Made by a program: the position numbers and the translations under genes. From the NCBI GenBank assembly GCA_027972325.1, contig JAPMOS010000036.1:80001-144000 (forward strand): a stretch of DNA of 64,000 nucleotides, read 5' to 3'. Positions 1-62,060 of this stretch are shown piece after piece. The notes beneath the pieces are model-generated. The model did not search any database. It was not told where the DNA came from and worked only from the letters and a program-made list of their open reading frames with translations. Source of the DNA: Paratrimastix pyriformis (lineage: Eukaryota > Preaxostyla > Paratrimastigidae). The stretch's first letter is position 1. The number at the start of each line of letters is the position of its first letter.

Positions 1-3000
1 AGCGGGGCGGGGGCATCAGCATGGCATCGGAGGCCGGCGGGCCGACGGGAGGAAGGGACGCGGGTGGCTGGACGGGACGGGGGGACGGAGGTGACAAGGA
101 GAAAGGTGATGATGATTGGATGATGATGATTGGATGATGGTGATGATTGGATGATGGTGATGATGATGACTGGATGATGATGATGACTGGATGATGATGA
201 TGATGATGATGATGATTGGGTGATGATGGTGATGATGGTGATGGTGATGATTGGATGATGATGGTGATGTGATGATGGTGATGATGATGATGATGATGAT
301 GATGATGATGATGATTGGATGATGATGATGATGATTGGATGATGATGATGATGATGATGATTGGATGATGAGGATGACTGGATGATGATGATTGGATGCT
401 GGTTCCCAGACGGACCGGAGACCGCTCGGCCTCCCAGTAGTCGGCCGGGTCGGCCGGGGGCATAGCGGCCGCCCCCGGGGACGCAGCCGCGCCGGCCTCG
501 TCGGCAGGGGGCGAGGGAAGCGGCGGGGGACGGTGGAGCAGAAGAGTCTGCGAGCTGCTCCGGGGCATGTACGCCTGCGGCTGGGGGGGGGGGGGGGGGG
601 GGGGGGAGGACGGAGTGCTGATGATGCTGATGCTGATGCTGATTGGGTGGTGGTGATGATGATGATGATGATGATGATGATGATGATGATGATGATGATG
701 ATGATGATGATGATGATGATGATGATGATGATTGATGATTGGGCGATGATTGGATGATGATTGGATGATGATTGGATGATGATTGGATGATGATTGGATG
801 ATGATTGGATGATCGCATGATGATCGCATGATGATTGGATGATGATTGGATGATGATTGGATGATGATCGCATGATGATGATCGCATGATGATGATCGCA
901 TGATGATGATCGGATGATGATTGGATGATGCTGAGATGCTGATGATGATGCTGATGATGATGCTGGTGTTTATGCTGGTGTTTATGCTGATGATGATGCT
1001 GATGTTGATGCTGATGCTGATGCTGGTGTTGATGCTGATGATGCTGGTGTTGATGCTGCTGATGTTGCCGTCTGCCGACCGTTGCCTGGACGGGGGCCGA
1101 TCCCTTGTAGAGCGGCGAGGCGGCCGCAGAGGCTGTGGCCAGGCGGGTAAGCAGCTCAGGGTTGGTCAGCACCGGGTCGCCCGACGGGTCGGAGGCGGCC
1201 TCCAGACGCCGCTCCAGGTGGGCCTGTGGCAGAGAGAGAAGAGGGGCGTGCGGCGTGTGTTGGGGAGCTCATCGGCAATCGTCATCCAATCAATCGTCAT
1301 CATCCTGCCGCATCAAATGATCATCATCGTCCAGTCATCCGATCATCATCCGATCATCATCCGATCATCATCCGATCATCATCCGATCATCATCCGATCA
1401 TCATCCGATCATCATCCGATCATCATCCGATCATCACCACCCTCAACATGGAGAACGGAAGGGTGAGACTCATGACGATGATCATCAACATCAACACCAC
1501 AATCAACAGCGACATCCAGTCATCATGGGGACGGGGCACGGACCTTGAACTCGTGGCCCACCCGCAGCCGTTCCTCCAGCCGCTGATTGTGGACGGTCTC
1601 CCGCTGAGAAAGCGACTGTCGGGCCGGAACAGCAGCACCCGCGGAACGAGATGGCATATGGCAGGACATGACACCCCCCCGGGAAGCAAAAGAAAGCAGG
1701 ATGTGAGAAGCGGTCCGGTCCATCCAGGTCTCCTCGCCCCCAGAACAGCAAACAGCCCCCCGGGACACAGCCACCCCGAACCGGGGAAGGGGAAGTGAAA
1801 AGGGAAGGGGAGAAATCCCCCAGCATCACCTCAGAACAGCAAACAGCACCCCAGGGGGACACAGCCACCCCGAACCGGGGAAGGGGAAGTGAAAAGGGAA
1901 GGGGAGAAATCCTCCAGCATCACCTCAGAACAGCAAACAGCACCTCGGGGGGACACAGCCACCCCGAACCGGGGAAGGGGAAGTGAAAAGGGAAATCCTC
2001 CAGCATCACCTCAGAACAGCAAACAGCACCTCGGGGGGACACAGCCACCCCGAACCGGTGAAGGGGAAGTGAAAAGGGAAGGGGAGAAATCCCCCAGCAT
2101 CACCTCAGAACAGCAAACAGCACCCCAGGGGGACACAGCCACCCCGAACCGGGGAAGGGGAAGTGAAAAGGGAAGGGGAGAAATCCTCCAGCATCACCTC
2201 AGAACAGCAAACAGCACCCCGGGGGGACACAGCCACCCCGAACCGGGGAAGGGGAAGTGAAAAGGGAAGGGGAGAAATCCCCCAGCATCACCTCAGAACA
2301 ATGAACACATGCCAACCAGCCAACCAGCCATCCATTCTGCACCCCCGTGGTCCTCCCTCCGCTCCCTCCAAAACCCCCAACCCTCCAGACCTGCGTCTCC
2401 ACCCCTCCCCTTCGTTCCCTCCGTTCCATCCGCTCCCCCCAAAACCTCCAACCCTCCAGACCTGCATCTCCATCGTCAGTTGCTGCCGCTGCTGCAGCAG
2501 AGCGGCGATCTCCTGGTTCTGCGGGGCGTACGTCATGGCCCGCTGCAGGCTGCGTGTGAGTGCCGGGGAGCTGATGACGGGGCTCCGGGAGGATGAGGGG
2601 GTCGATCCCCCCCCTGGGGTCATAGCCGGCTGCTCCGGGGAGGTGTAGGCCATCATCATCATGCCCGTGTCCACGGGCTGTTCAGGAGGAGGCTGCTCCT
2701 CGAAAGCCGGGAATTCCGGCGGCGGGGGCTGTTCCCGCTGGGGTGAGGTCGGCTCGGCGGGAGGGGCTGGTGCCGGGGGAAAATAGCCGAGGGGCTGCTC
2801 CGGGGAATGCAGGCGTGACATCAACACATTGGCGGCGACTTCGGGGTGCTGTCAAGGGGAAGAATGAGGCGACATGCGGACGAGTTGTGCGGTGATGACC
2901 TTGTGGTAATCGCTGACACTTTGATAGTCCTGACGGAGGGCAGCGAGTTCCCTCTGGAGGCGTTCTTTCTCTGCGGCCAGATTCTTGATTTCTTCGACGG

Positions 3001-62060: not shown

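Follow-up and report, generated by a model that had tools for sequence, protein, structure and literature searches.

How are introns recognized when their 5' splice sites (donors) begin with GTCTG or GTCCG? A stretch of 64,000 nucleotides from the free-living protist Paratrimastix pyriformis (contig JAPMOS010000036.1, positions 80,001 to 144,000; hereafter the window) raises this question, as a preliminary description made from its letters had proposed such donors for several of its genes. Few sequences of eukaryotes are as fixed as the 5' end of U1 small nuclear RNA (snRNA) and the GURAGU donor. We placed introns in the window and beyond it, and searched the genome (56.06 Mb in 495 contigs, the window being part of contig C288) for the RNAs that would read them. 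The donors of P. pyriformis are (AG)/GUCYG in place of GURAGU, the slash marking the exon boundary, and we are highly confident that its major (U2-type) spliceosome uses a recoded 5' splice site with a matched U1.

Two genes of the window, for an acyl-CoA synthetase and for phosphoglycerate dehydrogenase (PGDH), allow their introns to be placed from the encoded proteins (Table 1). At each junction we slid the two intron ends in step over as many as 12 bases, keeping the placements that preserve the protein. A single GT...AG placement resulted at each of 12 junctions, nine in the synthetase and three in PGDH, and every one is GTCYG (8 GTCTG, 4 GTCCG), so that all 12 donors proposed for these genes in the preliminary description fit. 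The spliced products, of 898 and 320 residues, have no internal stops. Proteins translated from complementary DNA (cDNA) records, one a contig of a transcriptome shotgun assembly (TSA) and one of expressed sequence tag (EST) type, cross 10 of the 12 junctions, seven of nine in the synthetase and all three in PGDH. EukProt protein P0001, from TSA contig GAFH01000314.1, has 100% identity over 88% of the synthetase; its exact match begins at residue 110 of the spliced protein and crosses the seven junctions, and of the 909 residues in its name the 789 in the sequence compared are all identical. The junctions at 10003 and 10127 lie upstream of this coverage and are based on frame and homology. For PGDH, EukProt protein P0127, from EC838700.1, which we take to be an EST-type GenBank accession, equals the first 185 residues, crosses all three junctions and leaves the frame afterwards. 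The P. pyriformis protein P0121 (NCBI, 343 residues) contains the window PGDH exactly. The GAFH records derive from 454 sequencing of the transcriptome of an organism then called Trimastix pyriformis (PMC3596361) and now placed in Paratrimastix (Preaxostyla, Metamonada).

Outside the window, the NCBI gene model PAPYR_3145 was placed on contig C24 through exact matches of its translation, no rule for the donor being imposed. Every gap was resolved, giving 31 introns with one GT-AG placement each, whose donors are GTC in 31 of 31 and GTCYG in 24 (GTCCG 17, GTCTG 7, GTCCC 4, GTCGG 2, GTCTC 1). Pooled with those of the window, they form a set of 43 junctions placed by exact protein match, the donor not being assumed, and with GT...AG ends each has exactly one protein-preserving placement among those enumerated. 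Position +3 is C in all 43, against a frequency of 0.50 for C deeper within these introns (p = 1.3e-13). Position +5 is G in 38 and C in 5 (intron background for G, 0.17; p = 2.5e-24), and +4 is a pyrimidine in 41 (C 25, T 16, G 2, A 0), against a background of 0.71 (p = 8e-5). At +6 we find C 21, T 13, G 5 and A 4, and -1 is G in 31. Compared with intron composition, C at +4 is as common as predicted (p = 0.19), U is somewhat commoner (p = 0.012) and A is avoided (p = 0.005); the ratio of C to U at this position is 4:8 of 12 in the window and 21:8 of 31 in the GC-rich PAPYR_3145. The donor signal sits in +3 and +5, and +4 chiefly excludes A and G. Donors resembling GURAGU are absent from the pool, with GTRAG in 0 of 43 and +4 A in 0 of 43. 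The GTCYG consensus is seen in each of the three exactly mapped genes, and the gene for U1-C (locus L047), which lies outside the pool, has donors GTCTGT and GTTTGT when read by eye. On both strands of the window GTCTGT is the GT hexamer with the highest z-score, with 152 occurrences against 27.4 expected from dinucleotides and 98.5 expected from 5-mers. Polypyrimidine acceptor-like sites downstream of GTCTG (0.09) or GTCCG (0.14) are not enriched in the window over all GT (0.13), a test that is uninformative.

Table 1. Genes of the window with placed introns (window coordinates)
Feature	Position	Strand	Evidence
NDP-forming acyl-CoA synthetase gene, 10 exons, 898 residues, nine introns all GTCYG...AG	9969..13463	+	P0001
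Acyl-CoA synthetase intron 1, GTCTGA	10003..10054	+	frame and homology only
Acyl-CoA synthetase intron 2, GTCTGA	10127..10203	+	frame and homology only
Acyl-CoA synthetase intron 3, GTCTGT	10435..10478	+	cDNA-backed (P0001)
Acyl-CoA synthetase intron 4, GTCCGT	10542..10616	+	cDNA-backed (P0001)
Acyl-CoA synthetase intron 5, GTCCGT	10685..10742	+	cDNA-backed (P0001)
Acyl-CoA synthetase intron 6, GTCTGA	10856..10920	+	cDNA-backed (P0001)
Acyl-CoA synthetase intron 7, GTCTGG	11339..11399	+	cDNA-backed (P0001)
Acyl-CoA synthetase intron 8, GTCCGT, sole tested shift that keeps the protein	12741..12926	+	cDNA-backed (P0001)
Acyl-CoA synthetase intron 9, GTCCGT	13061..13240	+	cDNA-backed (P0001)
Phosphoglycerate dehydrogenase (PGDH) gene, 4 exons, 320 residues	51820..53000	+	P0121, P0127
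PGDH intron 1, GTCTGG	51983..52032	+	cDNA-backed (P0127, EC838700.1)
PGDH intron 2, GTCTGT	52189..52294	+	cDNA-backed (P0127, EC838700.1)
PGDH intron 3, GTCTGT	52480..52541	+	cDNA-backed (P0127, EC838700.1)

The counterpart of this donor is apparent in U1. The Rfam U1 model RF00003 finds eight U1 genes on eight contigs, matched at full length (positions 1-166), and all eight read AUACAGACCU at the 5' end, where canonical U1 reads AUACUUACCU. Over a longer stretch they read AUACAGACCUUG where the model reads AUACUUACCUGG, and the canonical 5' end ACUUACCU is replaced by ACAGACCU in each. Nucleotides 5-6 are changed from UU to AG, and U1 is therefore complementary to AG/GUCUGU, the reverse complement of AUACAGACCU being AGGUCUGUAU. 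The preliminary description took its consensus to imply either a changed U1 5' end or a different mode of recognition, and suggested inspecting the U1 gene as a check; in all eight genes found the first of these predictions holds. The changed G6 faces +3 C, the strongest letter of the consensus, and the changed A5 faces +4 U. Among the putative exceptions listed in that description, GTCCCC and GTCGGC have +3 C, and GTTCGC (at 32067, a minus-strand site as read by eye) and GTTGGT have +3 U, for which a wobble with G6 is possible; GTACGA is the only one at odds with G6.

The eight genes all start with AUACAGACC and are identical over the first 58 nucleotides, with five distinct bodies and flanks that are mutually unlike by eye. 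Upstream of the placed U1 start, all eight genes carry the element CCCATAA at a distance of 59-60 bases, and seven of them have TCAAG/A at -30/-31. In U2, CCCATAA lies at -58 to -60 in all eight loci examined and TCAAG/A at -30/-31 in seven of them, and because these upstream elements agree, both the U1 promoter and the placement of the first base are supported. CCCATAA, also found upstream of U6 (-66/-67) and of both U5 loci examined, is a common snRNA upstream element, and we take it to resemble the Dictyostelium DUSE; the U6 upstream region has TTATAAGG or TTATCAGG-like stretches, the TCAAG/A box at -30/-31 being that of U1 and U2. A rival explanation is that a canonical U1 also exists and splices the introns, with the AG type a variant serving a subset. 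A pattern of CCCATAA plus ATACNNACCT with nucleotides 5-6 left open occurs at eight places genome-wide, all with AG (backward control, 0), a canonical U1 pattern has 0 matches, and no further U1 appears at E<=10 among the best candidates scored. Nor do donors suggest such a subset, GTRAG accounting for 0 of the 43 placed junctions and 3 of 489 introns from the gene finder described below. A second, canonical U1 might be missing from an incomplete assembly, and the diplonemid S. specki is described as having both a canonical and a variant U1 (PMC12621601); for P. pyriformis we consider this very improbable.

Of the other major spliceosomal RNAs, U2, U5 and U6 are present and carry their usual motifs in the copies examined. 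We find nine full-length U2 genes, seven U5 and, above cut-off, four U6, in addition to the eight of U1. The ACAGAGA box of U6 (GAUACAGAGA) is unchanged in the four genes above cut-off, as are GUAGUA of U2 (GUGUAGUA) in 8 of 8 loci examined and U5 loop 1 (GCCUUUUAC) in 2 of 2. That the introns are instead of the minor (U12) type, or converted descendants of such introns, read by a U11-like RNA, would suit donors that are non-canonical. However, U12-type donors read RUAUCCUU, unlike GUCYG, the U1 model aligns with the U1 genes across its positions 1-166, and a search of the genome for U11 gave 0 matches at E<=10, which leaves this explanation with hardly any probability.

Predicted duplexes give the pairing a measure. 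P. pyriformis U1 pairs more strongly than canonical U1 with 42 of the 43 donors, with means of -7.73 and -3.45 kcal/mol, respectively. When all 16 letter pairs at U1 nucleotides 5-6 are compared over these junctions, GG ranks first (-10.77), AG second and UU sixteenth, and the U1 change is thus right for +3 C and good, not best, for +4. From this pairing we infer splicing by the AG-type U1. Introns would be recognized by pairs of G6 with +3 C (or, as a wobble, +3 U) and of C4 with +5 G, with A7 and C8 pairing with GU and A5 with +4 U; +4 C would be tolerated as a mismatch or an A+C wobble.

The site would then be handed from U1 to U6, whose unchanged ACAGA box, fully complementary to UCUGU, would read +2 to +6. 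The predicted duplex of the U6 box is -7.3 with CAGGUCUGUAU and -1.9 with CAGGUAAGUAU. In a review of the standard site, +3 is usually A or G and pairs weakly with U6 G44, and +4 A, which first forms a Watson-Crick pair with U1, afterwards pairs weakly with N6-methyladenosine (m6A) 43 of U6 (PMC11732430). A +3 C could form a Watson-Crick pair with G44, where the ordinary A or G pairs weakly, and in GUCUGU both +3 and +4 could pair in this way with both U1 and U6. The heptamer AUACAGA is common to U1 and U6, and the same site would therefore be read with the same letters. We think it probable that the 5' splice-site code has been swapped naturally and genome-wide, with U1 converging on the ACAGA box of U6. 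U1, which reads the start of the intron first, and U6, which reads it last, would then require identical letters, and the usual conflict between their pairings would be gone.

The fit of U6, which needed no change, has also to be weighed in another light, namely that U6 (and U5) alone select the consensus, with U1 bypassed and its change incidental or secondary. Splicing without U1 is reported for Cyanidioschyzon (review, PMC11732430), and +4 C is unpaired with U1 A5. Against a bypass, U1 is kept in eight copies that share the common upstream element and their first 58 nucleotides, and two U1-associated proteins are retained: the exons of U1-C, joined by eye, yield a fragment matching human U1-C at 61.2 bits, and LUC7 has two loci. 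The U1 change is, moreover, exactly complementary to GUCUGU and the second best of 16, and -1 G, in 31 of 43, faces U1 C9, beyond the U6 box, an argument tempered by U5, which could explain -1 G. We regard a bypass as very unlikely, and recognition by the changed U1 as the better account.

A view independent of proteins was obtained with a self-training two-strand hidden Markov gene finder, in which GT and AG were fixed and +3 to +6 were flat. It was trained on 264 kb, comprising the window and 100 kb each of contigs C441 and C24. The flat start gave 490 introns, with C at +3 in 417 and G at +5 in 358, and a run started from GTRAGT converged on the same motif (501 introns, +3 C 430, +5 G 371). 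The 489 introns of the final run comprise GTCNG 316, other GTC 103, GTT 34, GTRAG 3, GTATG 1, other GTR 28 and non-GT 4. When the +3 and +5 letters were fixed, GTCNG was the best of 16 letter pairs in C441 and C24. Positions +4 and +6 of the predicted donors track composition, with more C in these GC-rich stretches (68.5% G+C in C441:100001-200000 and 69.9% in C24:100001-200000, versus 58.4% in the window). Composition could be suspected of creating the motif itself, the stretches being C-rich and the 43 introns half C inside, or the motif could be the trace of an intron family (introners) that has spread in recent times. Yet reversed sequence gave 696 introns with +3 C in 276 and +5 G in 293 and no motif of comparable strength, +3 C reaching 40% versus 85%, and the invariant +3 C of the placed junctions stands out from intron composition. 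As for introners, similarity to another intron is seen in 19 of the 489 (14 pairs), and in none of these pairs does it run from the donor through most of the length. We give an artefact or an introner origin almost no weight.

Short repeats, ATC/CAT-type and others, fill many predicted introns and their flanks (for example, 23737-24187, 26013-27410 and 44603-46827); they yield long doubtful open reading frames (poly-S, poly-H, poly-I) and disturb gene finding. In repeat-rich stretches the gene finder makes doubtful intron calls, and a tmcB-like gene with repeat-filled introns was not resolved by it even with the motif assumed. With the motif assumed, it placed seven introns in the acyl-CoA synthetase gene, six of them GTCYG, versus nine in the cDNA-backed model.

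Several observations weigh against a recoded donor with a matched U1. All eight U1 matches (50.8-60.2 bits, E 3.7e-13 to 2.0e-10) stay below Rfam's gathering score, which is 69.5. The U1 5' end is placed from the gene sequences, and in a predicted fold of U1 by itself the 5' CAGAC is able to pair with GUUUG in the region of the Sm site (L001:1501-1656). For PAPYR_3145, the 31 junctions come from a gene model and not from sequencing reads. Training on the window alone failed to converge on the GTCYG motif (+3 C in 34 of 79), and with fixed +3 and +5 letters, in one pass, GTCNG came fourth of 16 in the window, GTTNG being first. At the level of pairing, GG at nucleotides 5-6 would outpair AG. 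Opposite U1 A5 stands C in 25 of the 43 donors and U in 16; in the GC-rich gene the +4 letter is mostly unpaired, and A5 is often mismatched because C is there commoner than U. Among predicted donors a +4 C is not compensated at +6 (T in 57 of 177 with +4 C versus 31 of 90 with +4 T; p = 0.78), nor at -1 or -2, where -1 G is if anything rarer (0.62 versus 0.73, p = 0.077). Lastly, loss of METTL16 and SNRNP27K accompanies +4 U in yeasts (PMC11732430, PMC10581693), and P. pyriformis has both, though its placed donors lack +4 A: a METTL16-like gene on C332, for which the best relatives of solved structure are the U6 A43 methyltransferase, and an SNRNP27 gene on C9 that carries the MMxLMGF stretch. 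The yeast loss rule therefore does not carry over. A bolder form of the matched-U1 reading has A5 deaminated to inosine, a base expected to pair with +4 C as well as with +4 U; the retention of AG despite the better score of GG, and the presence of either pyrimidine at +4, would then be explained.

How such a donor could arise is suggested by the oxymonad Streblomastix, in which A, U and G at +3 to +5 are described as highly conserved across 21 introns (PMC1501061), and +4 U and +5 G therefore probably came first. An ancestor with GUAUG donors, as in Streblomastix, would already have had +4 U. A likely path then leads from U5 to A in U1, followed by U6 to G (nucleotide 6 of U1) and +3 A to C across the introns; the U1 changes and +3 C would have raised complementarity to both U1 and U6.

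Comparison with known systems places the change. Canonical U1 (ACUUACCU with AGGURAGU) and P. pyriformis U1 share the RNA itself, matched by the U1 model over its whole length, the register, GU and +5 G. They differ in nucleotides 5-6, which are AG, not UU, and in the donor, where +3 C and +4 Y replace R and A; P. pyriformis also has no U at nucleotides 5-6 to become pseudouridine. With the yeast-type GUAUGU donors of Saccharomycotina, Giardia and Streblomastix it shares +4 U, +5 G and complementarity to U6 ACAGA at +4 to +6. These donors keep +3 A and, in Saccharomycotina and Giardia, the U1 sequence ACUUAC is kept as well, whereas in P. pyriformis both +3 and U1 are changed. Across Saccharomycotina and outgroups, U1 ACUUACC is reported not to vary among the 236 genomes with a detected U1, though +4 switches, and the same study named a change of U1 position 5 to A as possible compensation for +4 U (PMC10581693). 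Giardia U1 is given as ACUUAC, as is that of the Guillardia nucleomorph, and in Bigelowiella the motif is described as fully conserved.

A natural altered U1 5' end is likewise known from S. specki, where a second U1 with a C-run 5' end stands beside the canonical one and both are reported to pair comparably with a canonical logo (PMC12621601); in P. pyriformis all the U1 genes found have the altered 5' end, and the donors are changed too. In Fritillaria borealis, whose introns are likewise broadly off the standard donor, 95% of introns are reported outside GT/AG with a strictly preserved U1 5' end, and divergent U2AF and m6A changes are proposed (PMC13326754); of the two organisms, only P. 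pyriformis has a changed U1. Laboratory compensatory U1 mutants (PMC11732430) show the same matching of U1 and donor, the P. pyriformis case being natural. In the literature searched, with subscription papers, preprints and supplements outside its scope, we found no report of a U1 replacement that goes with a matching, genome-wide change of the donor, and ACAGACCU, AUACAGACC and ATACAGACCT as whole words, sequences inside longer words being outside the scope, occur in no paper found. A swap of the U1/donor code has been proposed before; as far as could be found, a natural case seems to be unreported.

Both sides of the pairing are changed in an intron-rich organism in which U6 is unchanged and METTL16 and SNRNP27K are present. 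P. pyriformis thus offers a natural test of the division of work between U1 and U6 at the 5' splice site and, having no uridines at U1 positions 5-6, of the role of the pseudouridines there, as well as a case for how the splice code of a whole genome's introns can shift. Gene finders with standard donor models can be expected to miss GTCYG introns. The published genome (56,627,582 bp in 633 scaffolds, 60.94% G+C) was annotated with Augustus retrained on curated genes and with RNA-seq hints, and in the main text of that paper the word intron occurs twice, in methods and references, and snRNA not at all (PMC10703272).

Some candidates were set aside during these searches. The best zf-U1 match, locus L046, was rejected as U1-C in favor of L047; it looks to us like WBP4/FBP21. 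Four weak U6 matches were rejected as well, L016 as partial (19.2 bits) and L013-L015 as AT-rich (20.5 bits). The latter three, on contigs C179 and C243, share the same 98-base weakly U6-like stretch, with 34% G+C over 3.1 kb in an otherwise GC-rich genome, and may be copies of some mobile or foreign element.

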